A stretch of 54,689 bases of DNA from positions 1 through 54,689 of IMG/VR virus record IMGVR_UViG_3300033047_000013; one strand, written 5' to 3'. This DNA comes from a virus. Positions 1-35,727 of this stretch are shown here, piece by piece; positions within the stretch are counted from its first letter, which is position 1, and each line of letters starts with the position of its first letter. The notes beneath the pieces are model-generated. The model searched no databases. It was not told where the DNA came from and saw nothing but the letters and a program-made list of their open reading frames with translations. The translations under genes were made by a program, and so were the position numbers.

Positions 1-182
1 CTGCTGCTTATGCTGCTGATGCTGCTGCTTATGCTGCTGATGCTGCTGCTTATGCTACTGATGCTGCTGCTGCTGCTTATGCTGCTGATGCTGCTGCTTA
101 TGCTGCTGCTGCTCGTGCTGCTGCTGCTTATGCTGCTACTACTGCTGCTCGTGCTGCTGCTGCTTATGCTGCTACTGCTGCT
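1..182 (+). repeat. CTG/GCT-rich trinucleotide repeat
   Basis: Degenerate array of GCT codons interrupted by TAT, GAT, ACT and CGT, coding the Ala-rich part of the wrap-around gene. It probably broke the assembly of a circular molecule, and the true copy number may differ from what is shown. A second array of the same kind lies at 1823-2046. Confidence 0.9.
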
Positions 183-248
183 GAACGAGAATTACAGCGG
201 AAGGACTTGATTGAAGCCTTTCCACCGCTTTTAACCCCGCCAGCGTAG
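1..248 (+). CDS. Ala-rich repeat protein, 3' part (gene continues from 54378 across the origin)
   Basis: Third-frame translation gives an Ala-rich repeat (AAYAADAAAY type units, later AARAA and AATAA) followed by a non-repetitive end, AERELQRKDLIEAFPPLL, and a TAG at 246-248. The end matches that of the paralogue at 1511-2121 (AERELQRQDLMKAFPPLL), so this frame is the conserved one. Its 5' part is at 54378-54689. Joining the two needs a -1 shift at the CTC AAA / CTG junction, as in the paralogue. A Leu/Met frame is also open to 210, but it ends in less conserved sequence. Function unknown. Ala-rich AAYAA-type tails are common in phage and prophage proteins of unknown role. The stop codon lies inside a CAGCGTAG motif. 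Confidence 0.6.
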   Translation, partial: AAYAADAAAYAADAAAYATDAAAAAYAADAAAYAAAARAAAAYAATTAARAAAAYAATAAERELQRKDLIEAFPPLLTPPA

Positions 249-282
249 ACACCACCACCCCCATCAATGGAGACACTCACCA

Positions 283-807
283 ATGCAAGTAACACTTACC
301 AGAGACCAAATGCAGACGGCTTTTTGTGTGTATTCTCACGCAATGGGCGGCGCGGTCGTGTTCCTGGGTATTTGCCAGATCAGAGACGTGTATAACGCGC
401 CTGATGCGCGTAACAACACGGAATGGGTTAAGATGACCGAGAACAACGCACAAGTGACCGTGACCGTCCTACACGCATCTGAGGACGCCAACGAATGCAT
501 AAATCACCGTTACAAACTGTTCAAAGAGCAAGGGACACCACTTTGCAATCAGCGCGGCCAATTTTACGGCAGCGTGTTGACACATGTAAAATGCATAGAG
601 ACGGGCGAGATTTTTGTATCGCAAGCGGATTGTGCGCGTGTGTTAGGGCTTAATAAGTCGCAATTATGCAATCATTTAAACCGTAATGCAGGTTTTAATT
701 CAGTAAAAGGCCGCACGTTCGAGAAATGTGCAGCACCATCAAACCAAGGCGCACACCCCTTCCAGCGTAGACCGCCACAACCCCCATCAATGGAGACACT
801 CACATGA
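283..807 (+). CDS. Hypothetical protein with NUMOD1/IENR1-like DNA-binding repeat
   Basis: 174 aa. Residues about 105-150 (HVKCIETGEIF, SQADCARVLGLN, QLCNHL, GRTFE) follow the pattern of the NUMOD1/IENR1 helix-turn-helix repeat of intron-homing endonucleases: a short beta strand with ETG, then a SQ..A..LG helix and a closing K.GRTF strand. The same pattern recurs in the protein at 2121. The N-terminal 100 residues are not recognised. The last 23 residues are encoded by the junction module and are identical to the end of the next protein, so they are probably not functional sequence. The start at 283 has GGAG of a junction core 9 bases upstream. It is probably a DNA-binding accessory protein, possibly a remnant of a homing nuclease. 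Confidence 0.72.
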   Translation: MQVTLTRDQMQTAFCVYSHAMGGAVVFLGICQIRDVYNAPDARNNTEWVKMTENNAQVTVTVLHASEDANECINHRYKLFKEQGTPLCNQRGQFYGSVLTHVKCIETGEIFVSQADCARVLGLNKSQLCNHLNRNAGFNSVKGRTFEKCAAPSNQGAHPFQRRPPQPPSMETLT

Positions 808-809
808 AA
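736..809 (+). repeat. 74-base direct repeat, copy A (long form of the junction module)
   Basis: Identical to 1014-1087. It contains CACCCCTTC, the CAGCGTAGAC motif, a CCGCCACAA spacer, the junction core and the ATGAAA start of the next gene. It encodes the C-terminal tail of the upstream protein (GAHPFQRRPPQPPSMETLT) and the initiation region of the downstream one. Confidence 0.95.
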
Positions 810-1085
810 GTTCACACTATAGTAATTCGGAATAAATTGAATGGTAAATTCTTGAGTTTAACAGCAGGATATGACACATCATATGTTCGAGAAGGGGATT
901 TTATCGGAATGTTTGAATCGTTGTTGGTTGCTAATTACATTAGATCACAAATGACCAATAAGAACGATTACGAAGTTTATGCAACTGAAAGTGGTAAACC
1001 TATTCGACTAACCCCATCAAACCAAGGCGCACACCCCTTCCAGCGTAGACCGCCACAACCCCCATCAATGGAGACACTCACATGA
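804..1085 (+). CDS. Hypothetical small accessory protein
   Basis: 93 aa, of which the last 23 are the shared junction-module tail, so the protein proper is about 70 residues. It overlaps its neighbours by ATGA junctions, with GGAG 9 bases before the start. The sequence (VIRNKLNGKFLS, YEVYATESGKPIRL) has alternating hydrophobic strands and no motif I recognise. Probably an early accessory gene co-transcribed from the promoter at 54318. Confidence 0.62.
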   Translation: MKVHTIVIRNKLNGKFLSLTAGYDTSYVREGDFIGMFESLLVANYIRSQMTNKNDYEVYATESGKPIRLTPSNQGAHPFQRRPPQPPSMETLT

Positions 1086-1087
1086 AA
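1014..1087 (+). repeat. 74-base direct repeat, copy B
   Basis: Second perfect copy of 736-809. The coding sequences on either side are unrelated, so only the linker is shared. Confidence 0.95.
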
Positions 1088-1366
1088 ACCGATTCCCCTA
1101 TTTGCATTCAGTGCAGACCCGTCCAAGACGAAAAAGATTTATGCCCGTCTTGCAACCTAAGACTCGCTGCAATTCGTGCACAATCAAAACCATCTGTAAT
1201 TGAAAGTAAATTAACAGATGCAGAGAAATACCATCAGAATTGTTTACATGACCTACATGTTGAATATAGGCAAAAAGCTAAGGTTCACATAGACGCACTC
1301 AAAGAAATAGCATCATTAAGACCGCCTTTACCTGTATTTGTAGGAGTAAATCATGAGCAGAATTAA
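1082..1366 (+). CDS. Small zinc-ribbon-like protein
   Basis: 94 aa. Two CxxC pairs near the N terminus (C8-x2-C11 and C21-x2-C24, in ICIQC and CPSCN) suggest a structural zinc site. The rest is a probable helix (LTDAEKYHQNCLHDLHVEYRQ) with a short Pro-rich end. It starts in an ATGA overlap with the preceding gene, behind a junction core, and runs 14 bases into the gene at 1353. Function unknown. A nucleic-acid-binding role is inference from the cysteine pattern. Confidence 0.62.
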   Translation: MKTDSPICIQCRPVQDEKDLCPSCNLRLAAIRAQSKPSVIESKLTDAEKYHQNCLHDLHVEYRQKAKVHIDALKEIASLRPPLPVFVGVNHEQN

Positions 1367-1514
1367 AGACTATTACTGGTGCAATAGATGTGACGGTATT
1401 CATAGCCATAGCATTTCATGTGCAGACCATCAACTCGAACAAGACGCACGATATAAAGCCTTGCCAGAACCGGACACCACAACAACCCCCATCAATGGAG
1501 ACACTCAATCATGA
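1353..1514 (+). CDS. 53-aa Cys/His-rich micro-protein
   Basis: Starts ATGAGCAG behind a strong AGGAG (1342-1346) inside the end of the previous gene. It ends with the junction-encoded tail PINGDTQS, its TGA overlapping the next ATG. Cys and His residues (YYWCNRCDGIHSHSISC) could form a small zinc site. The RBS and the tight overlaps on both sides support expression. Function unknown. Confidence 0.6.
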   Translation: MSRIKDYYWCNRCDGIHSHSISCADHQLEQDARYKALPEPDTTTTPINGDTQS

Positions 1515-2121
1515 CTAAAATAACATTAAAACAAGCGATCGAAGCGGACGCATGTAAGAGCGGCATAGCTTCAATGCGTAAACATCTCAAAAGCATCAAC
1601 ATGCCGGAAACCAGTACGTTTTCGATTGGTGACGTGGCAAAAGGTTGTGATGTTTCAGATGCTTTATGGTGTTTACGGTTCGTAAAAGACCGTAGAACAA
1701 TGATCGCCGCTATCATGCCAAGCGTGATTCGCGCCAGTAAACACACGTCCGATAAGCGAGTACATGAATGCATTAAAGCCCTTCAAGCATGGCTTGCAGG
1801 TGACGACACAATAGACCTCAAACTGCTTATGCTACTGCTACTGCTTATGCTGCTGCTGCTGCTTATGCTACTGCTACTGCTGCTAATGCTGCTGCTGCTT
1901 ATGCTACTGCTACTGCTGCTAATGCTGCTGCTGCTGCTTATGCTACTGCTACTGCTGCTAATGCTGCTACTGCTGCTCGTTCTGCTGCTCGTTCTGCTGC
2001 TTATGCTGCTGCTCGTTCTGCTGCTTATGCTGCTTATGCTGCTGAACGAGAATTACAACGTCAGGACTTGATGAAAGCCTTTCCACCGCTTTTAACCCCC
2101 ATCAATGGAGACACTCACTAA
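1511..2121 (+). CDS. Ala-rich repeat protein, apparent -1 frameshift at the repeat boundary
   Basis: The first 104 codons (MTKITLKQAIEADACKSG to DDTIDLK) are near-identical to those at 54378. After AAA at 1820-1822 the same frame becomes a Leu/Met run ending at 2071. The -1 frame gives TAYATATAYAAAAAY, Ala-rich repeats and the conserved end AERELQRQDLMKAFPPLL plus the junction tail PINGDTH, with the stop at 2119-2121 overlapping the next ATG. Because both copies share this arrangement, either the family uses frameshifting or the duplication copied an existing frameshift. The short CTC AAA C sequence is not a classic slippery heptamer. The N-terminal domain looks helical and is unrecognised. 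Confidence 0.6.
1823..2046 (+). repeat. CTG/GCT-rich trinucleotide repeat, second array
   Basis: About 220 bases of GCT-type codons mixed with TAT, ACT, AAT and CGT, containing longer internal repeats (GCTGCTAATGCTGCT and similar). Same location within the gene as the array at base 1. Likely to expand or contract by slippage. Confidence 0.9.
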
Positions 2122-2447
2122 TGGAAGATTTTAACAAACGTATGAACGCTTCAATCGACCTGCTTGCTGAGATCGGCGAGACGGTACATGTCGCAACGCT
2201 TAAAGAAGCCATGAAACGACTGAACACCCCCAACAGCGTAGACGCCGACTCTAAACCTGGCGGGCTTGGTAAAGGTGTGGTGTGTGTCGAGACGGGTAAA
2301 GAGTACGAGTCGCAGCGTCAAGCATGTGTAGACCTTGGTGTGACACCTGCCGCACTATGCCACCATCTAAAAGGTCGGACAGGCTACAAAACAGTTCGCG
2401 GCTATACGTTTACACCTGTGACCCCCATCAATGGAGACACTCAGTAA
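2121..2447 (+). CDS. NUMOD1/IENR1-like DNA-binding protein
   Basis: 108 aa. An N-terminal helical segment (MEDFNKRMNASIDLLAEIGE) precedes a NUMOD1-like repeat at about residues 50-98 (GVVCVETGKEYESQ, RQACVDLGVTPAALCHHL, GYKTVRGYTF). The repeat aligns with the one at 283-807. It ends with the junction tail TPINGDTQ and overlaps the next ATG as TAATG. It sits behind a junction core with GGAG. A CAGCGTAG motif at 2234 lies inside the gene. There is no nuclease domain, so a regulator or a stand-alone DNA-binding module is more likely than an endonuclease. Confidence 0.7.
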   Translation: MEDFNKRMNASIDLLAEIGETVHVATLKEAMKRLNTPNSVDADSKPGGLGKGVVCVETGKEYESQRQACVDLGVTPAALCHHLKGRTGYKTVRGYTFTPVTPINGDTQ

Positions 2448-2701
2448 TGTTAACACTTGATAAGAAACATACAGCGCGGATTGTGCGCAATGCTCGTAAA
2501 ACGCTTGGTTGGACGCAAAAGCGGCTTGGTGAAGAATTGCACATACACCTATGTACAATATCTAAAATAGAAACACCTTCACACAAGCAAACAATACGCG
2601 CATCTGACTTCATGTGGTTAATCAACAAAGCCATGTCCCGACCTCAACCAAAACCAATATTTTATAAATACACCCCCATCAATGGAGACACTCAGATATG
2701 A
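2447..2701 (+). CDS. Xre-family helix-turn-helix regulator
   Basis: 84 aa. Residues about 10-45 (IVRNARKTLGWTQKRLGEEL, then IHLCTISKIE) are a typical Cro/C1-type HTH: the WTQ..L positions in helix 2 and the TISKIE recognition helix. I start it at 2447 rather than upstream because the junction core supplies GGAG and the homologous part begins there. It ends with the junction tail TPINGDTQI and overlaps the next gene by ATGA. Probably a small transcription regulator of the cassette or of the host. Confidence 0.8.
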   Translation: MLTLDKKHTARIVRNARKTLGWTQKRLGEELHIHLCTISKIETPSHKQTIRASDFMWLINKAMSRPQPKPIFYKYTPINGDTQI

Positions 2702-2790
2702 CCGATAAATTAAAAGACGACCTGCACAGTGGATTTTGGCTCGCAGCTTTTATCACTGTATTCCTCTGTTATATTCTGTCTGGTGTGTGA
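2698..2790 (+). CDS. 30-aa single-TM micropeptide
   Basis: MTDKLKDDLHSG followed by one hydrophobic segment of about 18 residues (FWLAAFITVFLCYILSGV). It is preceded by a junction core with GGAG and starts in an ATGA overlap. Predicted inner-membrane peptide of unknown role; very short, so moderate confidence. Confidence 0.5.
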   Translation: MTDKLKDDLHSGFWLAAFITVFLCYILSGV

Positions 2791-2843
2791 CACCCCATCA
2801 GCGTAGACCACCACAACCCCCATCAATGGAGACACTCAGTAGC

Positions 2844-3438
2844 ATGACACGTAAAGACTTTAATCAAACTGGTGCACTGTCCACAACTAATGAATGGTTG
2901 ACCCCACCGGAGTTGATAGCCGCTCTCGGTGTGTTTGACTTAGATCCGTGTGCGCCACCACCTGAACGTAGACCTTGGAACACTGCGCCGCTTATGTACG
3001 ACGAGAGAATCGATGGACTTAAAACGCCGTGGATAGGTCGTGTGTTTTTAAATCCACCATACGGACCAAATACTTTCACATGGTTAAAAATATTGTCCGA
3101 ACATTCAGGGGGGGGGGATTGCTTTGATTTTTGCTCGCACTGATACAATCGGTTTTCACGCTGAGGTATTCGCAAAAGCTTATAGTATTTTCTTTTTTAA
3201 ATCGCGTCTGAAATTCAACGGGATAATATCGCAATTGGAATTAAACACACCAACCGAAGCAGTACGAAAACGGATAAAAGGTAAGACCTTGAACCGAATT
3301 AATGCTGATTACTCATGGTTCAAAGGTGACGCTGCAAACGCTCCAAGCTGTTTAATCTCTTACACTCATGACGATTCTCAAATTATAAACGATGCTTTTA
3401 ATCGCGGTGACATCAAAGGATGTCATGTAATTTTATAA
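2844..3438 (+). CDS. dam: Phage DNA N6-adenine methyltransferase (Dam type), split by a G10 tract
   Basis: The protein begins TGALSTTNEWLTPPELIAALG, then FDLDPCAPP and VFLNPPYG. This is the start of the phage Dam family (DNA_N-6-adenine-methyltransferase), whose NPPY box is the catalytic motif. At 3109-3118 ten consecutive G give GGG GGG GGG GAT and a stop at 3143. With nine G the frame would continue IALIFARTDTIGFHAEVF to a stop at 3438, which matches the family's GIALIFART segment. The gene is thus off as read. This is either slip-strand phase variation, a homopolymer sequencing error or a mutation. It is the last gene of the rightward cassette. The target site cannot be read from the sequence, although GATC is usual for the family. 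Confidence 0.82.
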
Positions 3439-3439
3439 C

Positions 3440-3739
3440 TCACTCGTCCCACATGATTAAAACTTCCGTTTGACCGTTATAAACATCTCTTTTGGCATCG
3501 ACTTCGTTAACCGTTCTGATTTCAAACCTTACATTGTCTCCAACTAATATAGAGAAAAATCCACCATTTTCATCGACATGGTGCGTTCGTGTTTGCAACC
3601 CTAAATCTGCTAAAGCCTTTAAAATGGGTATAGCTTTTTTATTCGCAACAAACTCACCGTTCCCAAAAGTTACAATTTCATGGTCTTTTGTCAATTCGTG
3701 ATGATGATTAACATGTTTATATTTATCCGAAGCTTTCAT
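3440..3739 (-). CDS. Hypothetical 99-aa protein
   Basis: Leftward gene starting immediately before the end of the primase-helicase (spacing 0), so translated with it. Residues 1-20 are His-rich (KHVNHHHELTKDHE). The rest alternates strands and charged turns. No family recognised. It converges with the methylase at 3438. Confidence 0.6.
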   Translation of the reverse strand: MKASDKYKHVNHHHELTKDHEIVTFGNGEFVANKKAIPILKALADLGLQTRTHHVDENGGFFSILVGDNVRFEIRTVNEVDAKRDVYNGQTEVLIMWDE

Positions 3740-6130
3740 CTATTCATATCCCTGAGCACGACCGAATGCATTAATATCAGAAGTCCGGTCGATGTGATAC
3801 AACTCTGACTTTGATTCAGCACCTTCTTGAAAGTATGCACGCGGGGATCTACCGAGTGGTTTATATCCAAGGCTTTCACAAATATTACTCACTGCACGGT
3901 TTGATATGCGTTTCATTCCGAGTTCTTTGACGCGCCTATGGACGGCTAAACTGCTCACCCATCCGGCGCAGAACCCTGGTATAGCGTCTTCAACAGCATC
4001 ATATATCAATTGCTCCATTGGTGTCCGGCTAATCCTGATAGCTTCATCAGTGCTCGACGTGTGCGGTGCTCGCATAGGGATGTCACCGCGTTCAATCGGA
4101 TAATTCCATAGATAGTTGGCAATTATAGCCGTACCGTCCGCATCCATCCAATCGTATAATTCTTTGAAATATGCATCGTTCATTCCAAGTCGTATTAAAT
4201 CTTCATATGTTTGTATTTCGAGATAATATACAGCAAAACGGCGGTCATTTTTGGTCGTGGGAATGGCGTCTTTAAAGTTGGAAAAGAACCCCCAATTCGC
4301 CCAATTATCTTCAACCTCTTGGTCTTGACCCTTGGCCTGAACCTCAATTTCTTGCTCGGTTATCATTGGCTTGAGAACTTCGATCATATCGCGGCGGTCA
4401 TCGACTTTGATTTCATCTGCCAGAATGAACAATTTACCGCGCATCCAAGCATTGAATTTTGCACCACTGTCGGCCAAGTCTTTAGCGTTCGGGAAATGCG
4501 TATAAGACCTGCCAATGGAATGTCGTATAATGCGTTTGAACACACCTTTACCCGCACCCTGCTCCGATTGTAACAGCCAAGCCCAAGGAATTTTAAACCC
4601 TGGATATTTTACATTATGAGCAAGGTTGTCCAAGAAGTTTTTTTGGTCGGACTTATCCGGCATTATCAAATCTAAATGACGGTCGAATAGATAAGTGCTA
4701 CCTTCCACGCGCCGCACAATTTGCGGTTTATACGTGTTGATACCTTCCCGTCCGAGTTCATCTTTGATAATCTCACCGAAAGATTGGGACGGCATAAATC
4801 TTATATGGTCGGCCTTGGGAACCTGCCACAGCGTAGACCGCGTAGCGGCTTGCCAAGGCTCGTTGATAAGTTTACCGACCGAATCGATTATGAATTTCTT
4901 ACCGCCGAATTGTGCGTTAAATTGTGATGAATTTAAGAAGCGTACATCTTCGGTCAACATTTTACCAAGGTTGGTGACATAGGTGCATCCTTTAAACCAT
5001 TCCTTTTGTTCAAGGTCACTGAGGATTTCACCACTGCAATCCAACACAGGCGGTTTGCTCAAATCTGGTTGCTCTATGGTAACTGCACCTCGGCTGCATT
5101 GAATACCTTCCGGTGCTTCAACATCACCCATCGGCATAGCGGGAACAGATGGTGTGACAGCAGCTTTAGCTTTTTGTTCACCGAATAACATTTGAGCCTT
5201 AAGTGCGGGCGTCCGACTGACAATAGATTTCCAACCAAGTTCGGTTTCTCGTATGCTTTCCCAATGTTTCAGGTTTTCAGCAACATCATTGTCTTCATAT
5301 CCAGCGCACCACTGCGACCATAAATCATACATATATTCAGGTGTCGCCAGCGTAGACCCCGCTTGTTTGACAGCCGCCATAAGCGCAATCCACTCGCTGT
5401 GCTCTAAATTGTTCGGATCTGTGACTTGTAGAGCGTATATGAGCCATTCCAGTGACGGAGCCGCTAGGTCTGGTTCACCGAGTGGTTTACGGCTCCCTGC
5501 ACCTTCTATGACGTTCACAGCACCCAATGCTTGTTCAAGTGTGCTGACGTTATATTGGAAACCGTGTGCTGCAAGCGGGATAAACGTTACCATGTGCGGA
5601 TTGGTCGGGTCTTTTAAATGCAGTGTACCTGGAAGGCGCATGACGCGGGACGCATCTACAATGGATTTATCACCGTCGAACAGTTGACGTAATTTACGCT
5701 GTAATAATGTAAAGTATTCATTACCAGCGTAGGGTTCGACAGACCAATAAACGTGAAATTTGTTAGGGCTGGTCTGTACTGCAAAACTCGGTGCAGGTTG
5801 CCACTCGGTTGCGCGGTGATAATTCTGCAAAGCTGAGAGATTGTCCAAGTCGATATATTGTGCGCGAATACCAGAGACATTTTCAAGGCGGTAAATCGGT
5901 CTACCTCTGTCGTCTATTTTGTCACCGATCATATTTGCGTTAACAAACATGCCGTAACCTTGTTCCTGATATTGGACTATGGACGGCCAAACATCAGCGA
6001 GTAGACCGCGAAACGGTATAGCCGGAATGTCTTTTCTGACACCGTGAATAGCCCTAAAATCGACCACACTTGTTTCAGGTGGACCAACGAGCGCAGCTAT
6101 AAAAGCATATGATTGATTATAGTCTTGCAT
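3740..6130 (-). CDS. Bifunctional primase-helicase (RepB-like primase, PriCT-2-like, DUF5906/D5-like helicase)
   Basis: 796 aa. Residues about 55-175 resemble the RepB-type primase fold (GYGMFVNAN, YIDLDN with its metal-binding acidic pair, SFAVQTSPNKFHVYW, SRVMRLPGTLHLK). Residues about 226-305 resemble PriCT-2 (LEWLIYALQV, WIALMAAVKQAG, YDLWSQWC, LGWKSI). Residues about 500-640 resemble the DUF5906 helicase, with a Walker A-like SEQGAGKGV at 522-530 and a Walker B-like LFILADE at 567-573. It should prime and unwind at the phage fork together with the polymerase at 21502. It overlaps the methyltransferase start by one base. Three CAGCGTAG motifs lie within it on the opposite strand. Confidence 0.85.
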   Translation of the reverse strand: MQDYNQSYAFIAALVGPPETSVVDFRAIHGVRKDIPAIPFRGLLADVWPSIVQYQEQGYGMFVNANMIGDKIDDRGRPIYRLENVSGIRAQYIDLDNLSALQNYHRATEWQPAPSFAVQTSPNKFHVYWSVEPYAGNEYFTLLQRKLRQLFDGDKSIVDASRVMRLPGTLHLKDPTNPHMVTFIPLAAHGFQYNVSTLEQALGAVNVIEGAGSRKPLGEPDLAAPSLEWLIYALQVTDPNNLEHSEWIALMAAVKQAGSTLATPEYMYDLWSQWCAGYEDNDVAENLKHWESIRETELGWKSIVSRTPALKAQMLFGEQKAKAAVTPSVPAMPMGDVEAPEGIQCSRGAVTIEQPDLSKPPVLDCSGEILSDLEQKEWFKGCTYVTNLGKMLTEDVRFLNSSQFNAQFGGKKFIIDSVGKLINEPWQAATRSTLWQVPKADHIRFMPSQSFGEIIKDELGREGINTYKPQIVRRVEGSTYLFDRHLDLIMPDKSDQKNFLDNLAHNVKYPGFKIPWAWLLQSEQGAGKGVFKRIIRHSIGRSYTHFPNAKDLADSGAKFNAWMRGKLFILADEIKVDDRRDMIEVLKPMITEQEIEVQAKGQDQEVEDNWANWGFFSNFKDAIPTTKNDRRFAVYYLEIQTYEDLIRLGMNDAYFKELYDWMDADGTAIIANYLWNYPIERGDIPMRAPHTSSTDEAIRISRTPMEQLIYDAVEDAIPGFCAGWVSSLAVHRRVKELGMKRISNRAVSNICESLGYKPLGRSPRAYFQEGAESKSELYHIDRTSDINAFGRAQGYE

Positions 6131-11849: not shown

Positions 11850-12106
11850 CTCATGACTTCCATAGCCAAACCGTTCGCTTCATATGTTTTTGTGTTGGAA
11901 GTGAATGTATGTGTATCGGTCGAATCTTTTAGAGACATTACAGCTATCATTTTATCAGGTTTCAATTCTCCGTTATCTATCATTCGCAAAATATTTATGA
12001 GCATTTCACGCGGAGAAATATCTTCTGAATTATTAGATTTACCTGCACGTATTTCACCCAAACTAACAGGTTCTTTCGTAAAGTCTTTGTCATTTATATC
12101 ATCCAT
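11846..12106 (-). CDS. Hypothetical 86-aa protein
   Basis: Acidic, hydrophilic protein between the helicase (13-base overlap) and the nuclease (ATGA overlap). ISPREMLINILRMIDNGELKPDKMIAV suggests one helical core, with a short beta-rich end. No family recognised. Co-translated with the recombination genes. Confidence 0.6.
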   Translation of the reverse strand: MDDINDKDFTKEPVSLGEIRAGKSNNSEDISPREMLINILRMIDNGELKPDKMIAVMSLKDSTDTHTFTSNTKTYEANGLAMEVMR

Positions 12107-14823
12107 TTGTCATTCCATCCTTCTACGGTTGCTGCTAGTTTTTCCATTTCTACGCGCGATAATGTCATAGCAGTGAGGACATCGACCTGCGCTGTCAAAT
12201 AAAATCTTCTGTACGATTCTTGGTCTGCACGTCCGAGATGTTGCTGTATTCCAGCCCATTGATTGATTGCAACGGTCAAGCGTTGTTGCGCTTGGTGCTT
12301 CTCAATCTGTCGGTTTACATGACCCTTAGCGGCGTAGACCGGAACACCAGACGCCGCAATCCTCTGACCGACTGACATAGGGCTTTCCAAGATAGCCGCT
12401 TGCATCATTTGTGCGATTGTTTCCCTGTCCATAAGTACCAAATCACCATCAACATGCTCTATGGAACGCGCTGCGCCCATCGGAACAGGTTCGTGACCAC
12501 AGTAAGGGCAAACGGCGTGAAACTTCTCATACGGGCGTGAGCAGCCACGACAAGCGGTTAAAGGTATGTCTTCGGGGTCTGGTTCACGCTTCCCGCGCTT
12601 CTCGCGCCTATCAAGCGTCCAAATGTGTGCTTTGTCGGGAAATCCGTGACGTTTCCAATTGCTCACATGGTCGATAATCAGGCCGTATAGTTTACCTTCC
12701 ATGAGCCTAAGAGCACGACCGAATTGCTGCAAATAGACACCGAGAGATGCAGTAGGTCGAGCCATGATGACAACTTCAACGGCGGGGCAGTCAAATCCTT
12801 CACCGAACAGATCCACATTAACCAATATTTTGATTTTATCTTCCCTGAACTGGCGAATGTGGTGTGCTCGTGTCTCTGCTGGTGTTTTTGCAGATATGGA
12901 AACCGCATTAATTCCAGCAGCTTTAAACTGTTCAGCAATTTTACCAGATGTTTCAACATCAGTAGCGAAACATATTGCCCGTTTGCCGGATGCCAATTTG
13001 ACATATTCGTCTACCACATTTCCGACAATGTGTGATTTCTCGGACGCCATTTTCATCTTTTGACGACTGTAATCGCCCGTAGCAGTCACCGCCGAATCAT
13101 CAATTATGAAATCTGTTTCAGGTATGGCAATTTGATAATCGGACAGTGAACCCATTTCGATCAGTTGTCGCATGGTCGGACCTGTCACCATTTCGTCATA
13201 CAAACCATCGTGGTGACGACCAAGACCCTGACCGTCCGCTCTCTGTGGTGTGGCTGTCACGCCGAGACCGTTGGCGTTCTTGAACATGTTTGCAACTCGA
13301 CCCCATTTATTAGGTGTCGTATTCCATACGGTTTCAGGCGTTTGACTTATAACTGCGCCAATGGCGTGATGACCTTCATCAATTGTCCAATCATCAATCT
13401 GTTCAGCCCAATCTTTAAGTTCGGCACGTCTTGCCCAAATCGTATCGACACCGCCGACACTACAATTTGATGTAGGATCTACAAAGTTCCGACCGAACTC
13501 GCGACGATGGTCTTGTCTGATCGCGTTGATGACATTCTTTGGTGCGATAATCCGGTGCTTGATGCCGCGTTGTGCTATGTGCATTGACATTTGACTGACT
13601 AGTTCGGTTCTATGAGCAATGACACACTGCGTTGCACCGAGCATGTGTTTGTCGAGCACGATGTCAGAAATTACGACAGAGTTGTGAACAACCGTGAAAT
13701 CAGCAAGCAAGAATAAACTATCATTACCCTGTACTTCAAACCCAAAATATTCACCAACACCAACAGGTTCAACAGAGATGCCAACATTCAATACATTTTT
13801 CTTCTGTTTGCGTGGACGTGCTTTTTTACGTTCTAAAATGCAGGGTATTTTTTCTATATTTCCTGATATTACACACCTAAAGTAAGTTCCTACGACTCCG
13901 TTATTCACACAAGTTTTGGATACTTTTCTTTTATATGCGCTGAACCCAAGCGACCGAGCAACAAATATTAAATCATCTAACAGTTTTTCGGATTTCAAAC
14001 AAATGTCATAACCTTTACCAGTGTAATAACCGTCTGAATCCATTAAACCTGCAAGAAGTTGCAACCTTTGTTTTTCCGATGCTGTTTTGTAATTGTGAGG
14101 TATGTGCTTATTTCGGTATAGGTTTTCACATTTTAAAAACTTCAACAATGGATTGTTACGTGGTTGTTTTCCAATAATGTTAACTGTTTGCGCTTTATTG
14201 TTTGGCTTTCTTGCAAAGGAGCATTTCAAACCAACCTTTTCAGCATATTCGATTAAATATTCCACAATAGGAGCGTCCTTTGTGGTTACTGCTGTATTCC
14301 GCGCAGTTCCATCACCGAGCCATAAACCGAGCCAATACGGATCATATTGTAAATCTTGCGGTGTTTCAAAGTTTACACCACTGCGCCAACCTTTGTGAAC
14401 ATGTTTGAAATTTTTAGATTTATTAATATATTCTTTAACGGGAATGTTTACAATGGAACCACCTAATTTTTGACAAGGATATTTCGGTTTGCTTCTTAAA
14501 TTAGTCATCCTAAGAGATAAAACATGCTCTGAATTTACGATATAAGAAGCACCTTTTACAGGGGTAATCTCATACATTTGATCCATACCAGAATGGAGAT
14601 TAACAACTTTTCTGGTTTTACCATCTGGTCCCATGACATGTTCACCAACCGTAATTGTTTCAACGGTTTTAACAGTGCCGTCATGCATCAAAACTTCCGT
14701 ACCACGCTTGAAACACTTACCCCCACCTGTCGGGAGCACCATCAGGACGTTTTTATGACCTGCGTTCCAAGAGTTATAAATACCTTGTTTGAGATCGGCT
14801 TGATATGGTCTGAGAATTATCAT
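12094..14823 (-). CDS. SF2 helicase, RadD-like, interrupted by an intein
   Basis: 909 aa. N-terminal RPYQADLKQGIYNSW, a Walker A written LPTGGGK with the intein inserted right after K36, then S382 onwards. DEGHH at about 482-486 (motif II), VTATPQRAD at about 522-530 (motif III) and QQFGRALR at about 699-706 (motif VI) define an SF2 DExH helicase. A C4 zinc finger (CRGC and CPYC, about 758-775) is as in RadD-type helicases. The extein is about 564 aa. The gene is active only after splicing restores GGGKS. It lies in the leftward recombination operon with the nuclease and MazG-like genes. Confidence 0.92.
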   Translation of the reverse strand: MIILRPYQADLKQGIYNSWNAGHKNVLMVLPTGGGKCFKRGTEVLMHDGTVKTVETITVGEHVMGPDGKTRKVVNLHSGMDQMYEITPVKGASYIVNSEHVLSLRMTNLRSKPKYPCQKLGGSIVNIPVKEYINKSKNFKHVHKGWRSGVNFETPQDLQYDPYWLGLWLGDGTARNTAVTTKDAPIVEYLIEYAEKVGLKCSFARKPNNKAQTVNIIGKQPRNNPLLKFLKCENLYRNKHIPHNYKTASEKQRLQLLAGLMDSDGYYTGKGYDICLKSEKLLDDLIFVARSLGFSAYKRKVSKTCVNNGVVGTYFRCVISGNIEKIPCILERKKARPRKQKKNVLNVGISVEPVGVGEYFGFEVQGNDSLFLLADFTVVHNSVVISDIVLDKHMLGATQCVIAHRTELVSQMSMHIAQRGIKHRIIAPKNVINAIRQDHRREFGRNFVDPTSNCSVGGVDTIWARRAELKDWAEQIDDWTIDEGHHAIGAVISQTPETVWNTTPNKWGRVANMFKNANGLGVTATPQRADGQGLGRHHDGLYDEMVTGPTMRQLIEMGSLSDYQIAIPETDFIIDDSAVTATGDYSRQKMKMASEKSHIVGNVVDEYVKLASGKRAICFATDVETSGKIAEQFKAAGINAVSISAKTPAETRAHHIRQFREDKIKILVNVDLFGEGFDCPAVEVVIMARPTASLGVYLQQFGRALRLMEGKLYGLIIDHVSNWKRHGFPDKAHIWTLDRREKRGKREPDPEDIPLTACRGCSRPYEKFHAVCPYCGHEPVPMGAARSIEHVDGDLVLMDRETIAQMMQAAILESPMSVGQRIAASGVPVYAAKGHVNRQIEKHQAQQRLTVAINQWAGIQQHLGRADQESYRRFYLTAQVDVLTAMTLSRVEMEKLAATVEGWNDKWMI
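13681..14715 (-). other. Intein with LAGLIDADG homing endonuclease (residues 37-381 of the helicase)
   Basis: 345 aa. It starts with Cys (CFKRGTEVLMHDGTVK, block A). NSEHVL is block B. Two dodecapeptide motifs (YWLGLWLGDGT at about 163-173 and LLAGLMDSDGYY at about 256-267) form the DOD endonuclease. GEYFGFEVQGNDSLFLLAD is block F and FTVVHN|S is block G, with Ser as the first extein residue. All splicing residues (C1, H, H-N and S+1) are present, so protein splicing should work. The insertion point in the ATP-binding loop is a classic intein site because it is conserved. Confidence 0.92.
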
Positions 14824-15173
14824 ATTTTAATTTTGCAGTCGAGCCGATCACTTACTTTATTGAATTTATTTACGACACATTCTTCCAAAGACGTACCATG
14901 TTTTTGTGCAAGTAAATCTAGGTACGCCAATACATCCCCTATTTCGTCGCACAATTGGTTTTCTAAATCCTCTTTAGATTTACCCATGTTTGCAACTTCA
15001 AAACCGTCTCTGATGCGATTGAGTTTCTTTATGACATCACAAACTTCTCCGGCTTCGCCCGCCATTGCCACACCCCAATCAGATAAAGACCAAGCACTTA
15101 AAGGGTGATTAAACCCTTGTTCGCAACGTAATAAATTAATATCCGCAAATTGTTTAAATGTTAATTCAGTCAT
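14820..15173 (-). CDS. MazG-like nucleotide pyrophosphohydrolase
   Basis: 117 aa from the ATG at 15173, which overlaps the preceding TGA as ATGA. GEAGEVCDVIKKLNR and CDEIGDVLAYLDLLA are the two metal-binding helices (ExxE and ExxD) of the MazG/dUTPase-like alpha superfamily. The family hydrolyses NTPs or (p)ppGpp-related nucleotides. Phage copies are thought to adjust nucleotide pools or stress signalling. Overlaps the helicase start by 4 bases. Confidence 0.82.
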   Translation of the reverse strand: MTELTFKQFADINLLRCEQGFNHPLSAWSLSDWGVAMAGEAGEVCDVIKKLNRIRDGFEVANMGKSKEDLENQLCDEIGDVLAYLDLLAQKHGTSLEECVVNKFNKVSDRLDCKIKI

Positions 15174-15931
15174 CTCAATGTCCAATCGTTTTTAGTTGAA
15201 GATTTATAAATTTGGGTAGGTTCGTCAGGTGTTTGTGTCTCACTCCATAATCGCCCACAGGCTTTTAAATAATACGCTTCGTCTAATTCCACAGCTTTAA
15301 ATCTGCGTCCCGACCTGATAGCTGCGAGCGCCGTAGAAGCGGTTCCGGCGAACGGGTCAAATATGATGTCACCACTCTTTGTGCTTTGCTCAATGTAATG
15401 TTGCACCAATCTAACAGGTTTTTCAGTAGGGTGTGTTTTGTCACCACTGTAAACAGGTGGACAGAAATAGATTTGCGACTGACCACAATCATTTATCTTA
15501 ATGGCGGGTTTGTTATAAAACATACAGACCATTTCAGTTTCCATCATGTAGAAACGGTTCGCATTCTTACGACCTTTACCCCAAAATAACATATTCGTAA
15601 GGTGAAACTTATTGTCGTGCGCCGCGTTGAGCAATGCTCTCAAAGTGATGCGGTTGGTCATAATATAACAGTGACCACCAGGTTTCAGAACACGGCTCAA
15701 TTCAGGTAAATAATCGGACGGTTTGATGTTGTTGTGTTTGAATATTTTACCGTCATTTTTATGCAGTGAACTAGCGTCCCAACCGTATTTACGACCCGCT
15801 TGGCTCGTTACACCACCGCTTACCGTTTTATAAGGCGGGTCTGTAAAAACCATATCCACTGAATCGTCGGCCATTTCCGCCATGACTTGCAGTGCATCAC
15901 CGTTAATTATTTCACCGTTTGGAAATATCAT
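15170..15931 (-). CDS. DNA methyltransferase (beta-class order)
   Basis: 253 aa from the ATG at 15931 (ATGA overlap with the SLOG-like gene; GGGG lies upstream). DMVFTDPPYKT at about 27-37 is the catalytic box, HPTEKP at about 171-176 precedes the binding loop, and FDPFAGTASTALAA at about 191-204 binds AdoMet. Second of three methylases in the genome, and unlike the one at 6130 in its insert (GWDASSLHKN region). Likely modifies phage DNA against restriction; the target base and site cannot be told from the sequence. Confidence 0.88.
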   Translation of the reverse strand: MIFPNGEIINGDALQVMAEMADDSVDMVFTDPPYKTVSGGVTSQAGRKYGWDASSLHKNDGKIFKHNNIKPSDYLPELSRVLKPGGHCYIMTNRITLRALLNAAHDNKFHLTNMLFWGKGRKNANRFYMMETEMVCMFYNKPAIKINDCGQSQIYFCPPVYSGDKTHPTEKPVRLVQHYIEQSTKSGDIIFDPFAGTASTALAAIRSGRRFKAVELDEAYYLKACGRLWSETQTPDEPTQIYKSSTKNDWTLR

Positions 15932-17724: not shown

Positions 17725-18537
17725 ATGAAATGCACATTAACAATTACCGCCAGCACAACGACATTGGCTTCACTTTTGTCGATTATCGAAAATTACGATG
17801 TAGAAGTCAAAACCGCTCCATCGGTAGATGAACCTGTAAACACTACTGTAATTGTCGAACAGACACCCATCAGCGTAGAATCAGTTATTGTTGAACAACC
17901 AATCGCTCCGGTCACACCAGTTGTCGCGCCGACACCTGCCAGCGTAGACGCAGAATTGGATGCAAACGGTATTCCTTGGGATGATCGCATTCACGCCAAA
18001 ACTAAAGCGCGTGTTAAAGATGATACATGGCGTAAAAAGCGTGGTGTTGATGATGTGATTTATGAATCCGTCGTAGCCGAACTTAAAGCTTCTGTCGCTC
18101 CGGCAATGCCAACGGGTGATGCTCCGGTGGTTCCAGTAGTTGAACAACCTGTCGCACCTGTGGTTCCAGTAACACCACCAATGCCGAACGGTGATACAGT
18201 CGTCCCAAACGCACCAGTGACGGACCCTGTCGTTTCTGTGGCTCCGACAGTTGCCCCGACCCCTGCTCCGGTAGCGGATATTGTGCAGCCAGTAGAACCT
18301 GTTACTGCACAGCCTGTGGCGGCGGGGTCTGTTGACTTCAACGGTTTCATGCAAACGCTTGGTAAAAACATGCAGACCAACCCTACCAAAGTGAATACCA
18401 TTTATCTGACCACAATTAAAGATGAAATCGGGACGGCTTTTAATACGTCATTGAGCGCAATTACCGACATCGCCGCAAATCCGGCGATGATTGATTACGC
18501 TATTCAGTTAATGCAACGCGACAACACTTGGGCATAG
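17725..18537 (+). CDS. Phage replication-block protein with Pro/Val-rich linkers
   Basis: 270 aa. A short N-terminal alpha/beta part (MKCTLTITASTTTLASLLSIIENYDV) is followed by a P/V-rich linker. Then comes LDANGIPWDDRIHAKTKARV and TWRKKRGVDD at about 75-109, a conserved phage motif (G.PWD.RIH...WR.RRGVDD) of unknown role, another P/V-rich linker and a helical end (FNGFMQTLGKNMQTNPTKV). Its location before the Cas4-like nuclease and DUF2815 genes is the usual one for this family, suggesting a DNA-recombination accessory. Two CAGCGTAG motifs (17871, 17940) sit in its first linker. Confidence 0.7.
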   Translation: MKCTLTITASTTTLASLLSIIENYDVEVKTAPSVDEPVNTTVIVEQTPISVESVIVEQPIAPVTPVVAPTPASVDAELDANGIPWDDRIHAKTKARVKDDTWRKKRGVDDVIYESVVAELKASVAPAMPTGDAPVVPVVEQPVAPVVPVTPPMPNGDTVVPNAPVTDPVVSVAPTVAPTPAPVADIVQPVEPVTAQPVAAGSVDFNGFMQTLGKNMQTNPTKVNTIYLTTIKDEIGTAFNTSLSAITDIAANPAMIDYAIQLMQRDNTWA

Positions 18538-18539
18538 AT

Positions 18540-19646
18540 ATGTTGATAACGACCGCAACAAATCTACCGCGTCTTATGGCGTGTCCAGGGTCTAGGTTGG
18601 TGGGCGGTGCTTTGCCGCCCATCGAACCTGATCCGAAAAGAAAGCTACAACGCGATGAAGGTGATGCAGCGCATTATATGGCTGAAACAGCTTTCAATGG
18701 CGAGAGCACTCTCGAAGAATTGGTAGACCAAAAAGCACCAAACGGTGTGTATATGACTGCTGACATGGCTGAACATGTTGAACTGTATTTGAACGCATTA
18801 CCTGAAAAATCACCTACGAGCGCAATGGAAGTTGAATGTAATTATCACGGTGAAGGATTTCAAGTGAATGGTCGTTCTGACCATTTGGATTGGCACGACA
18901 CCACGGGAATTTTGCACATTGGCGACCTTAAATACGGTTGGGGAATTGTCGAACCTATTCACAATTGGACGCTAGTTTCTCATGCTGTTGCTTGGTGTTT
19001 GAGTAATCCATCACTTAAACCAACGTCTATAATCATGACAATTTATCAGCCGCGACCGTTTCATAGAGACAGTAAGGTTCGTCGTTGGGTTATAAGTTAC
19101 GATCAGCTTATGGTTTTATGTGCTCAGATATTTGCACAATTGTCAAACCCGACTGATAATTTAATGACCGGACCAAATTGTTATAAATGCAAAGCACTTG
19201 CGGCTTGTCCTGCTGCACGAAAAGCAGCGCTGAACGCCGTCGATATTGCTGATATAGCACATGACGATACGGTTAGTGGTGTTGAATTGTCGCTCGAATT
19301 GGACAATCTAAAAGCGGCCGCTGCACGTATTAAAAACCGTCTCGGTGCTATTGAAGATTTAACCAAACACAATATCCGGTTGAATGCTAATTCAGCACCA
19401 GGCTATGCAGTAGAACATCAGTTCGGCAATCTCAAATGGAACGATGGAGTCAACATAGATTTTCTCAAAGTGATGACAGGGAAAACACTGTCCAAACCTA
19501 AAATATTAACGCCGAAGCAAGCAATCAAAGCGGGTGTTGACGAAGCAACTGTTAAATCATTTAGCCACGAACCATCAACCGGATTAAAACTTATCCGAAT
19601 CACATCTGACGAAAAAGCGTCAAAACTGTTCAAGAAAGGAACATAA
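18540..19646 (+). CDS. DUF2800 / Cas4-like PD-(D/E)XK exonuclease
   Basis: 368 aa from the ATG at 18540, though an upstream in-frame TTG at 18528 is possible. LMACPGSRL near the N terminus, EGDAAHYMAE, then VNGRSDHLDWH and LHIGDLKYGWG (catalytic D and D-x-K) are as in RecB/Cas4-type nucleases. C-terminal cysteines (CYKCKALAACPAAR) probably hold an iron-sulfur or zinc site. Such DUF2800 nucleases pair with DUF2815 proteins in phage recombination cassettes, as here. Confidence 0.85.
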   Translation: MLITTATNLPRLMACPGSRLVGGALPPIEPDPKRKLQRDEGDAAHYMAETAFNGESTLEELVDQKAPNGVYMTADMAEHVELYLNALPEKSPTSAMEVECNYHGEGFQVNGRSDHLDWHDTTGILHIGDLKYGWGIVEPIHNWTLVSHAVAWCLSNPSLKPTSIIMTIYQPRPFHRDSKVRRWVISYDQLMVLCAQIFAQLSNPTDNLMTGPNCYKCKALAACPAARKAALNAVDIADIAHDDTVSGVELSLELDNLKAAAARIKNRLGAIEDLTKHNIRLNANSAPGYAVEHQFGNLKWNDGVNIDFLKVMTGKTLSKPKILTPKQAIKAGVDEATVKSFSHEPSTGLKLIRITSDEKASKLFKKGT

Positions 19647-19647: not shown

Positions 19648-20556
19648 ATGTCTAAAGAAATCTTATCACCACCAGGTCGCATCGTTTGGGGAAATCCAGG
19701 TAAAGCGAGAGCAAAAACGGACAGTAAGACAGGTCAACCAGTTTTAAAAGACGGTCAACCTGTTCAGCAATGGGTGTTCGGTCTGGCTATTCCTAAAGAG
19801 GAATTTCAAGCACACGTATGGCCCGCTATGGCTGAGGAAATCGCAACAGGTTTCCCACAAGGAACGCCACCAAACTTTTCGTTCAAGTATAAGGACGGTG
19901 ATGGGGTTGACCATAAAGGTGTGCCGTTCTCGAATCGTGAAGGTCATGCAGGTTGTATGATTTTGACGGTCGCTACCGAATCATTCGCACCACCAATTTT
20001 CAAACTAAACCCACAATCCGGTCAGTACGATCAGTGGCCTGCCGAGCAAATTAAGACAGGTGATTATGTACGGGTTTCGTTGAGTATGAAAGTTAACGTA
20101 CCGACCAACCCAACACATACACCTGGTATTTATGTAAATCCTCAAGGTGTTGAGTTCCTCGGATATGGTGAAGAAATTCACAATGGACCGGACGCTCAAG
20201 GTATGTTCGGCGGTCAAGCTGCTGCATTACCACAAGGTGCAAGTGCTACACCGTTGGCATCAACACAAGCACCAGGGATGCCAATACCTCAACCTGCTGC
20301 GGCTCCATTGGCTCCGGTTCAACCTGCTGCGGCTCCATTGGCTCCGGTTCAACCTGCTGCGGCTCCATTGGCTCCGGTTCCTGGTCAAGTAGCAATGCCC
20401 GCACCAGCGCAGAACTTTGTTCCACAACAACCTGCACCGTTGGCTCCCGTAGCACCTGTTGCTGCACCGTTGGCTCCCGTAGCACCTGTTGCTGCACCGT
20501 TGGCTCCCGTAGCACCTGTTGCTGCACCGATACCAGGAGCAATGCCCCCGCGATAG
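19648..20556 (+). CDS. DUF2815 ssDNA-binding-like protein with tandem-repeat tail
   Basis: 302 aa. Residues 1-180 (GRIVWGNPGKARA, QWVFGLAIPK, FSNREGHAGCMILTV, IKTGDYVRVSLSMKVN) fit DUF2815, thought to be an OB-fold single-strand-binding protein. Residues about 200-300 are a low-complexity tail with three exact ten-residue repeats (AAAPLAPVQP type) and three of another (APVAAPLAPV type). As in SSB, the flexible tail may recruit partners, but lacks the acidic SSB tip. Starts one base after the nuclease stop, with AAAGGA upstream. Confidence 0.82.
   Translation: MSKEILSPPGRIVWGNPGKARAKTDSKTGQPVLKDGQPVQQWVFGLAIPKEEFQAHVWPAMAEEIATGFPQGTPPNFSFKYKDGDGVDHKGVPFSNREGHAGCMILTVATESFAPPIFKLNPQSGQYDQWPAEQIKTGDYVRVSLSMKVNVPTNPTHTPGIYVNPQGVEFLGYGEEIHNGPDAQGMFGGQAAALPQGASATPLASTQAPGMPIPQPAAAPLAPVQPAAAPLAPVQPAAAPLAPVPGQVAMPAPAQNFVPQQPAPLAPVAPVAAPLAPVAPVAAPLAPVAPVAAPIPGAMPPR
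20291..20380 (+). repeat. Tandem repeat, three exact 30-base units
   Basis: Unit starts AACCTGCTGCGGCTCC and codes ten residues of the DUF2815 tail. The three copies at 20291, 20321 and 20351 are identical, which points to recent slippage or duplication. Confidence 0.95.
20431..20529 (+). repeat. Tandem repeat, three 30-base units plus a partial
   Basis: Unit CTGCACCGTTGGCTCCCG followed by TAGCACCTGTTG; copies begin at 20431, 20461 and 20491, with a partial fourth. The first differs by one base. In frame with the DUF2815 gene. Confidence 0.93.
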
Positions 20557-21501: not shown

Positions 21502-23541
21502 ATGACATTCACGCTCGATCACGCTGTTGTCTATGATATTGAAACCCTTCCAAATGTATTCACATTAAATGCTCAGTCCCTTTATGGTGACTTTGAATCG
21601 ACGTGGGAAATAAGTTGGTTTCGGGACGACCGTATTCAAATGCTTCAATGGTTCAATCATTTACGTCTGACGCAGGCGCCGATGATAGGGTTTAACAACC
21701 TTGGCTTCGATTATCCGGTCATTCATTTTATTATGATGCACCCGCAATGTACAATCGACCAGATATATCAAAAAGCCCAATCTATAATCACAGGTAACGA
21801 CAGATTTAGTCATATGATTTGGCCGTCCGATCGTTTCGCTCCACAAATAGATTTATTCAAAATACATCACTTCGATAACCGAGCAAAAACCACTAGTTTG
21901 AAAGCACTCCAAATCAATATGCGTTCGGAGACTGTGGTCGAATCATCTCTTGGTTTCGGTATAAATTATACAGCCGAGCAAATTGATGGTGAACTAATAC
22001 CGTACAATAAGCATGACGTTAAAGAAACCAAAGCATTTACATTCCACACGCTCAAAGCTATCAATTTCCGCATTGGTCTGATTGATGAATACGGTATAGA
22101 AGTTCTCAATTATAACGACACAAAGATTGGTTCCAAAATCCTTGAACATAGGTTGGGCGAACATGTCTGCTATGACAAATCATCTGGACGGAAACAACCC
22201 CGACAGACACCGCGTTGGCGCATCGACCTTGCTGAAATCATCTTCCCTTACATATCGTTCGATAATCCCGAATTTCAGCGTGTATTGGAATATATGAAAG
22301 CGCAAGTTCTGGTTCCTGATGACCTTACAGACCCCGAAGCAACTATCAAAACCAAAGGTGTTTTTAGCAATCTAAAAGCTAATGTAGGCGGATTAGAGTT
22401 TCACTTTGGGACAGGTGGTATTCATGGTTCAATCAGCGCACAACGCATCATGTCTGACGACGAATGGTTGATAAGAGACATTGACGTGGCAAGTCTGTAC
22501 CCGTCCATAGCTATCGTCAACAAGCTATATCCGGCGCATCTTGGTGAAGCGTTTGTACATGAGTATGAAAAGATACCGTTGGAACGCGGGAAGCACAAGA
22601 AAGGGACGATTGAGAACGCCGCTCTAAAACTTGCAGCCAACGGTACATACGGTAACAGCAACAACAAATATAGCGTGTTTTACGACCCACAATTCACCAT
22701 GACCATCACCATCAACGGACAGTTGATGCTTTGTATGTTAGCAGAGCGTTTGGCTCTCGTCCCGACTATTCAGATGGTGCAAATTAATACGGACGGCTTG
22801 ACATACAGAATACATATAGACCATGAACCACAAGCCGCTCAAATTTGTAAAGATTGGGAAGCGTTCACTTGTTTGGTGTTGGAAAGTGTGGACTATAGCC
22901 GCGTATTTATAAGGGATGTGAACAACTATATTGCCGAATATAAAGTTCCGGCCGGATCTAATCAGAAACCTAAGTTGAAACAAAAAGGTGCGTACTGGTT
23001 CCCCGACCCGCTCGACTATGCAGACTCCATTTCTAACAACTCACCCCCTGCGTGGCATAAAGACCTTGGTAACATCATTTCACAGCGAGCAGCATTAGCG
23101 GCTATGATAGACGATGTTGACCCTGAGACGTTCATCAGGGCGCATACAGACCCGTTTGACTTCATGTTACGGGCAAAGGTCAACCGTGCGTCCAAACTCA
23201 TGCTAGGAGACCAGCAGATACAGTCTACCAGTAGATATTATGTAGCGACGAACGGGCAAGAATTAATCAAGGTCAGTCCACCCGCTAAAGATTATCAGGT
23301 TGGAGCGTTTAAACGTGCAAGTAAGGTTCCTGATTCATTGTGGGCATCGGTGAACGCCGATATTCCTATTGGAAGTTGGGACGTGCGTATTCACACTAAA
23401 AACAAATCAAAATACACAATACGGCGCATGAACATGCAAGCGGGTTGGAAATGCGCGGAATGCAATGATGCAAAGACTTTCGACTTTGCAAACATTGATT
23501 ATGCGTTTTATGTGAACGAAGCTAAGAAACTTATTATTTAA
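21502..23541 (+). CDS. Phage DNA polymerase, family B-like with 3'-5' exonuclease
   Basis: 679 aa. Exonuclease motifs: YDIET (Exo I, D12/E14), GFNNLGFDYPV (Exo II, near 63-73), YNKHDVKET (Exo III, near 168-176). Polymerase motif A is RDIDVASLYPS with D328, motif B KLAANGTYGN at about 376-385, motif C QINTDGL with D431. The first Asp of the usual DTD is Asn here, while the metal-binding second Asp remains. With the primase-helicase it gives a self-contained replisome. Its stop overlaps by 4 bases the end of the convergent tailspike gene. Confidence 0.92.
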   Translation: MTFTLDHAVVYDIETLPNVFTLNAQSLYGDFESTWEISWFRDDRIQMLQWFNHLRLTQAPMIGFNNLGFDYPVIHFIMMHPQCTIDQIYQKAQSIITGNDRFSHMIWPSDRFAPQIDLFKIHHFDNRAKTTSLKALQINMRSETVVESSLGFGINYTAEQIDGELIPYNKHDVKETKAFTFHTLKAINFRIGLIDEYGIEVLNYNDTKIGSKILEHRLGEHVCYDKSSGRKQPRQTPRWRIDLAEIIFPYISFDNPEFQRVLEYMKAQVLVPDDLTDPEATIKTKGVFSNLKANVGGLEFHFGTGGIHGSISAQRIMSDDEWLIRDIDVASLYPSIAIVNKLYPAHLGEAFVHEYEKIPLERGKHKKGTIENAALKLAANGTYGNSNNKYSVFYDPQFTMTITINGQLMLCMLAERLALVPTIQMVQINTDGLTYRIHIDHEPQAAQICKDWEAFTCLVLESVDYSRVFIRDVNNYIAEYKVPAGSNQKPKLKQKGAYWFPDPLDYADSISNNSPPAWHKDLGNIISQRAALAAMIDDVDPETFIRAHTDPFDFMLRAKVNRASKLMLGDQQIQSTSRYYVATNGQELIKVSPPAKDYQVGAFKRASKVPDSLWASVNADIPIGSWDVRIHTKNKSKYTIRRMNMQAGWKCAECNDAKTFDFANIDYAFYVNEAKKLII

Positions 23542-25757: not shown

Positions 25758-25773
25758 TGTTCATTTCCTTTGT

Positions 25774-27912: not shown

Positions 27913-27913
27913 G

Positions 27914-32431: not shown

Positions 32432-32455
32432 TTTAACAACCTTTTGTTATACGAT

Positions 32456-33228: not shown

Positions 33229-33252
33229 TTTGGTCGCTTTCTTTATGGGTGA

Positions 33253-33277
33253 TTGGGTGGGTTTGACGCCCACCCAA
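33253..33277 (-). terminator. Hairpin after the tail tube gene
   Basis: Stem TTGGGTGGG / CCCACCCAA, 9 bp, loop of 7. No U tract follows on either strand, so it is more likely an mRNA 3'-end stabiliser or a weak attenuator than a full terminator. It lies between the tail tube and chaperone genes. Confidence 0.55.
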
Positions 33278-33282
33278 GAGAG

Positions 33283-33831: not shown

Positions 33832-33844
33832 GATAAGAACCCTT

Positions 33845-34683: not shown

Positions 34684-34692
34684 GTGACATAA

Positions 34693-35724: not shown

Positions 35725-35727
35725 GAT

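Follow-up and report, generated by a model that had tools for sequence, protein, structure and literature searches.

A 22-nt sequence, CCCCCATCAATGGAGACACTCA, referred to here as the linker, occurs in nine exact copies within one early operon of the virus held in IMG/VR as IMGVR_UViG_3300033047_000013, and every copy stands just before a start codon. The window analyzed is the whole of this record (54,689 bp, 42.7% GC, classed as linear). We propose that the linker is probably a translation-initiation module of this operon, resembling the start-associated sequences (SAS) of cluster K mycobacteriophages, which also serves as recombination homology for cassette duplication. Genes are named below by the position of their start codon.

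Nine identical linkers occupy the ribosome-binding position

The nine copies contain no mismatches and all lie on the plus strand. Copy 1 (54353 to 54374) is the first in the operon, directly after its promoter and before the ATG at 54378. Copy 2 (258 to 279) lies 3 nt before the ATG at 283, copies 3 and 4 (781 to 802 and 1059 to 1080) each lie 1 nt before their ATGs at 804 and 1082, and copies 5 to 8 (1486 to 1507, 2096 to 2117, 2422 to 2443, and 2673 to 2694) precede the ATGs at 1511, 2121, 2447, and 2698. Copy 9 (2817 to 2838) lies 5 nt before the ATG at 2844. The operon extends from 54353 to 54689, across the contig ends, and on to 3438, and the linker array lies in a run of small non-structural genes beside the primase gene. 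A shorter form contained in the 22-mer, CATCAATGGAGACACTCA, is likewise present in nine exact copies. When up to 3 mismatches were allowed in the 18-nt core of the linker, only the same nine matches were recovered in the 54.7 kb, against a mean of 0.07 in shuffled sequences. The distance from linker to ATG was 1 to 5 nt in all nine copies, and no copy was found elsewhere; the initial annotation, which had placed nine linkers just before start codons, was therefore borne out. This is the position of a ribosome-binding site (RBS), and a Shine-Dalgarno (SD) core, GGAG, lies 8, 10, or 12 nt before the ATG.

Conservation reaches well beyond the SD core. Besides GGAG, 18 more bases are fixed, with CCCCCATCAAT before it and ACACTCA after it, and the edges are abrupt, since variable bases precede CCCCC and follow CTCA and the flanks are fully diverged. 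Elsewhere in the window, about 60 genes begin behind ordinary upstream sequences that differ from one another. The linker includes an imperfect dyad, CCAT-CA-ATGG, and is free of stop codons in all frames. It also contains an ATG (METL...), which was considered as the start of a leader peptide; the length and frame of this peptide vary among the copies, and the frame agrees with that of the following gene only at 2826. Folding of the linker RNA and of the joints was no better than that of shuffled sequences (z about -1 to +1.4 in all contexts folded), ruling out a riboswitch or other RNA structure. The linker was also ruled out as a promoter, as the operon promoter is a separate element.

Upstream reading frames run through the linker

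The initial annotation held that six upstream proteins read into the linker. Five intact open reading frames (ORFs) do so, and the sixth case is conditional. Genes 283 and 804 end in PSMETLT followed by TGA, so that an ATGA overlap is formed with the next start codon, and genes 1353, 2121, and 2447 carry PINGDT tails and stop on the next ATG, giving five joints with stop/start overlap in all. The sixth protein, encoded at 1511, would read into the linker only after a frameshift in a CTG-rich tract: its ATG frame stops at 2071, short of the linker, which only the frame encoding AAY repeats reaches. The CTG/GCT tracts at 1815 to 2071 and 1 to 210 belong to two copies of one gene; in both, the ATG frame encodes poly-Leu, the frame that reaches the conserved end encodes Ala-Ala-Tyr repeats, and the shift seems to fall at one and the same place in the two copies.

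Homologues of gene 283 in phages X2_24 and P106B end in KGRTY[K/I]RTVK, about 20 to 25 residues short of the end of the window protein. Because of this difference, the C-terminal tail of gene 283, APSNQGAHPFQRRPPQPPSMETLT, is taken as an addition encoded by an extended form of the linker, as judged from the sequence comparison. Overall, the SD sequence, the stop/start overlaps, and the linker-encoded ends support the annotated role of the linker in providing an RBS and adding tails to upstream proteins.

A gene has been copied from linker to linker

The two ends of the contig lie inside the same type of gene. Positions 54378 to 54689 encode MTKITLK...DTIDLK, the start of the protein encoded at 1511, and positions 1 to 238 hold a CTG/GCT repeat tract and the end of a 1511-type gene. 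The sequence therefore suggests that the contig is probably circular or circularly permuted and was broken within the repeat, so that its ends join. With the ends joined, the end-spanning gene was aligned with 1484 to 2140. Homology begins at AACCCCCATCAATGG and stops at the next linker, and the flanks are unrelated on both sides. The first copy of this linker-gene unit occupies 54351 to 54689 (continuing at 1 to 238 if the contig is circular) and the second 1484 to 2120, both on the plus strand, the latter having copies 5 and 6 of the linker at its left and right edges. The gene copies are 98% identical over their first 300 nt, which argues that the duplication is recent. One of them carries, between gene and linker, a 23-nt piece, GCCAGCGTAGACACCACCACCCC, that corresponds to module A (described below) and is flanked by CCCC.

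The annotated extension of two linker copies, 3 and 4, to 74 identical bases was confirmed, as 736 to 809 is identical to 1014 to 1087 (plus strand). Module A, the linker, and ATGAAA are all part of this repeat, as are the tails of two genes that are unrelated to each other. Genes are present for an exonuclease (phrog_69; 18528 to 19646, plus strand) and, adjacent to it, a Gp2.5-like single-stranded DNA-binding/annealing protein (phrog_7011; 19648 to 20556, plus strand). With these two genes present in the phage, annealing between short repeats by their products is plausible, and the exonuclease is a candidate recombination partner. No integrase or site-specific recombinase was recognized among the proteins scanned, which represent a subset of the ORFs. 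Thus, of the gene shuffling proposed in the initial annotation, one whole gene copied from linker to linker and the 74-bp copy stand, while an evolved shuffling system is not supported.

One promoter serves the linker operon

A strong promoter, TTGACA-16-TATGAT (11 of 12 positions matching), is located at 54318 to 54345 on the plus strand, at the head of the operon. This promoter is one version of a recurring promoter-like sequence, TTGACACATTRTTTGACA...TAT, present at 7095, 36632, 46718, and 54316 on the plus strand and at 44952 on the minus strand, which is probably the phage's own promoter class. Within positions 1 to 4000, internal promoter-like matches occurred at shuffle level only, and the sole terminator-like site on the plus strand lies at 3407 to 3426, at the end of the last operon gene. 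No terminators were found at the linker joints, and one promoter serves the whole operon.

A second repeated element, module A (ACCCCTTCCAGCGTAGACCGCCACA), lies directly upstream of the linker at 755 to 779, with further plus-strand copies at 233 to 257, 1033 to 1057, 2791 to 2815, and 54285 to 54309, the last being upstream of the promoter. It is found upstream of four of the nine linkers (among them copies 2 and 9) and is a single motif without promoter hexamers. The octamer CAGCGTAG, also noted in the initial annotation, occurs at 54293 (with a variant at 54270), followed by the promoter and by the linker at 54353, so these elements do come as a set at the operon head.

Nine of the 10 operon cistrons are preceded by a linker, the exception being gene 1353, which overlaps gene 1082. 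The genes between linkers are mostly orphans and mostly unrelated to one another. Gene 283 (283 to 807) has a NUMOD-like end, and gene 804 (804 to 1085) is an orphan with the same linker-derived tail, PSNQGAHPFQRRPPQPPSMETLT. Gene 1082 (1082 to 1366) is a small, cysteine-containing orphan that stops before the next linker, and gene 1353 (1353 to 1514) encodes 53 residues and ends in TPINGDTQS within the next linker. Gene 2121 (2121 to 2447) encodes an I-HmuI NUMOD-like protein ending in TPINGDTQ, with its stop codon TAA overlapping the next ATG; gene 2447 (2447 to 2701) encodes a helix-turn-helix (HTH; XRE-like) protein ending in TPINGDTQI, and its stop also overlaps the next ATG. ORF 2698 (2698 to 2790) encodes 30 hydrophobic residues and stops before the linker. 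Gene 2844 (2844 to 3438) is DNA methyltransferase-like, with its frame broken by a run of 10 G near 3108 to 3117, which is either a sequencing error or a phase-variable tract. All of these genes are on the plus strand.

Relatives lack the linker

To our search with the linker 20-mer, neither IMG/VR nor the GTDB contigs returned a match, although records very near the window were possibly excluded from the search set; the proposed database search with the linker core therefore yielded no other carrier. A 17-mer matched five contigs, four of which represent one conserved sequence and none of which has the match at a gene start, and a degenerate 15-base pattern gave 33 single, unrelated matches. 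Searches with module A gave zero matches, BLASTN against phages and plasmids returned nothing relevant, and among viral contigs, nothing closely related to the products of genes 1511 and 283 was found.

The window represents a siphovirus with genes for portal, major head, tape measure, terminase, polymerase, and primase. Among named phages, the closest to it are the Rhizobium phages P106B and RHph_X2_24 (genus Rigallicvirus), with polymerase 59% and terminase 61 to 63% identical. In 21 related records, all of them distant (polymerase identity of 65% or less), no linker was found at up to 3 mismatches except for an isolated 3-mismatch match without GGAG in one genome (G018). In six related phages, the homologue of gene 283 is not preceded by a linker. 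Relatives carrying the same genes without linkers had been named as evidence that would speak against the shuffling idea, and such evidence was thus obtained in part, for this one gene.

Start-associated repeats different from the window linker occur in two of the relatives. In G017 (L113 to L115), a whole promoter-leader-RBS unit is repeated before about eight genes at 23530 to 36588, and in G009 (L098), TGTACCATCACAC..AAGGAGCAAA is repeated before several early genes at 14381 to 15861. Lineage-specific start elements may therefore recur in this phage group.

A polar octamer and other features of the genome

The octamer CAGCGTAG is present in 17 copies on the plus strand (241, 763, 1041, 2234, 2799, 4829, 5348, 5725, 11411, 17871, 17940, 29921, 42313, 43691, 45648, 48314, and 54293) and in none on the minus strand, the count outside the array being 11 to 0, where a third-order Markov model expects less than one. 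It is the most over-represented polar 8-mer of the window and is rare in relatives. Its copies are spread over the three codon phases and lie in genes of either orientation, which suggests a polar motif acting at the DNA level, perhaps a Chi-like, priming, or packaging signal. It is neither part of the linker nor specific to junctions. As to the recommended check for a recombinase or Chi use, the exonuclease and the annealing protein were found, no site-specific recombinase was recognized in the scanned set, and no evidence ties CAGCGTAG to Chi.

Elsewhere, a tRNA-Asn(att) gene at 43689 to 43766 contains the octamer in its acceptor stem, and an IS1595-like transposase fragment, consisting of a zinc ribbon and the start of a DDE domain, lies at 52543 to 53067. 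The ORF at 12094 to 14823 encodes a 909-residue helicase whose first 400 residues also match terminase profiles and whose homology to the helicases of relatives spans about 525 residues; a fusion or an insertion may account for this.

Discussion

The closest described counterparts of the linker are the SAS and extended SAS (ESAS) of cluster K mycobacteriophages (Pope et al. 2011, PMC3203893). Like these, the linker is a short asymmetric repeat at the RBS position (in all nine copies), it is conserved past the SD core, it serves many non-structural genes in nearly always (here always) one orientation, and it stands beside unrelated genes, with some upstream stop codons falling inside the repeat. 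About half of the SAS are accompanied by a second upstream motif, as four of the nine linkers are by module A; the 17-bp inverted repeats and promoter of the ESAS have no counterpart in module A. The differences are also clear. The linker measures 22 bp and the SAS 13 bp (GGGATAGGAGCCC), the copies here are perfectly identical and confined to one operon with a linker-bounded gene duplication, and SAS-bearing genes mostly follow a gap of more than 50 bp, whereas five upstream ORFs here overlap the linker and the start codon. Conservation among relatives is likewise absent from the 21 records compared. As its sequence is unrelated to the cluster K consensus, the linker appears to be an independent, SAS-like variant and no homologue of the cluster K SAS.

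Independent variants have been reported. The Microbacterium cluster EF phages (PMC7302621) carry 10 copies of a 13-bp motif, GGGAAAGGACCCC, at the RBS position together with an associated upstream motif, as in the window, and their genomes are little similar to those of cluster K, so that independent lineages have their own SAS version. The EF motif differs from the linker in sequence, in tolerating one mismatch, in being intergenic, and in belonging to phages of Gram-positive hosts. The role of SAS is still described as unclear (PMC11373665; PMC12699233). For the present operon, we propose a combined role.

Transcription from the single promoter at 54318 would give most cistrons an identical, unstructured 22-nt leader with GGAG 8 to 12 nt before the ATG. 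Since all three of its frames are free of stops, ribosomes leaving an upstream gene would cross the linker and in many cases terminate at the following start codon, as ATGA or TAATG. Such overlap would couple the translation of neighboring genes and add the tail that the linker encodes. Being long and identical at each of the joints, the linker would also offer homology for recombination, probably by single-strand annealing involving the exonuclease and the Gp2.5-like protein; this would have copied at least one linker-gene unit and could keep the linker copies identical, through gene conversion, unless selection by a bound regulator maintains them. Three points weigh against this reading: gene 1353 lies in the operon with no linker in front; no linker-bearing relative was found in the 21 related records, IMG/VR, or the GTDB contigs; and published SAS, which are without proven function, usually lie in gaps of more than 50 bp, whereas upstream ORFs here overlap the element. 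A stronger version, in which the linker is a standardized, self-propagating operon joint with its own RBS and stop/start coupling, kept identical so that genes delivered between linkers by annealing recombination are expressed at once, seems to us rather doubtful.

The whole 22-mer might instead be the target of a regulator, that is, an RNA-binding protein, a small RNA (sRNA), or a DNA-binding protein of phage or host that switches the cistrons together, with recombination at linkers as a by-product. Identity well past GGAG on both sides, sharp edges, nine copies before unrelated genes, and the imperfect dyad are consistent with this, an HTH protein and two NUMOD-like proteins are among the products of the operon itself, and Pope et al. 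argue likewise for SAS (PMC3203893). However, neither a regulator nor an sRNA was identified, the linker RNA has no stable structure, and the phage plus strand has no stretch of 9 to 14 nt complementary to the linker, so we regard this explanation as possible, though somewhat unlikely. A further possibility is that one leader spread recently, through duplication or through errors in annealing, and now does no more than supply the SD sequence. The presence of an SD and the recent 74-bp and 300-nt duplicates would agree with this; it is very unlikely given that all 9 x 22 linker positions are unchanged while the flanks have fully diverged and the genes are mostly unrelated.

The remaining explanations concern gene exchange. 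Lambdoid boundary sequences, which have been put forward as sites of recombination, resemble the linker in being short, conserved, and placed at gene joints; they vary from joint to joint and are shared at a given joint by different phages, whereas here one sequence stands at nine joints of one phage. The PeSL elements of T4-type phages, ascribed to Arbiol in 2010 and Comeau in 2014 and cited in PMC4503421, are reportedly mobile regulatory cassettes. They are described as a regulatory element repeated between small genes and providing homology for modular shuffling, which makes them the nearest concept for the shuffling aspect; a PeSL reportedly combines a promoter with a stem-loop, and the linker is neither. 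Linkers dedicated in a similar manner to swapping accessory genes with relatives would explain the linker-to-linker duplication, the 74-bp extended copy, and the mostly orphan genes between linkers, and the phage has recombination genes. Yet the homologues of gene 283 in relatives have no linker, no second linker-bearing phage is known, no site-specific recombinase was recognized in the proteins scanned, and only a single whole gene is duplicated. We consider such dedicated shuffling improbable; a purpose-built system is possible, the evidence being one clear duplication in one genome. The comparison with integron attC sites worked by an integrase, also drawn in the initial annotation, extends to the cassette-like layout only and is contradicted by an unstructured linker devoid of attC-type hairpins; no integrase was recognized among the proteins scanned, and this origin is hardly credible.

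SAS were recognized by 2011 in phages of Gram-positive hosts and are still without a proven function. Here, a SAS-like version belongs to an unrelated siphovirus, the nearest named relatives of which infect Rhizobium and Sinorhizobium; this suggests that identical start elements for early genes have evolved repeatedly. The gene copied from linker to linker adds the idea that such start elements also act as joints where genes are gained and duplicated.

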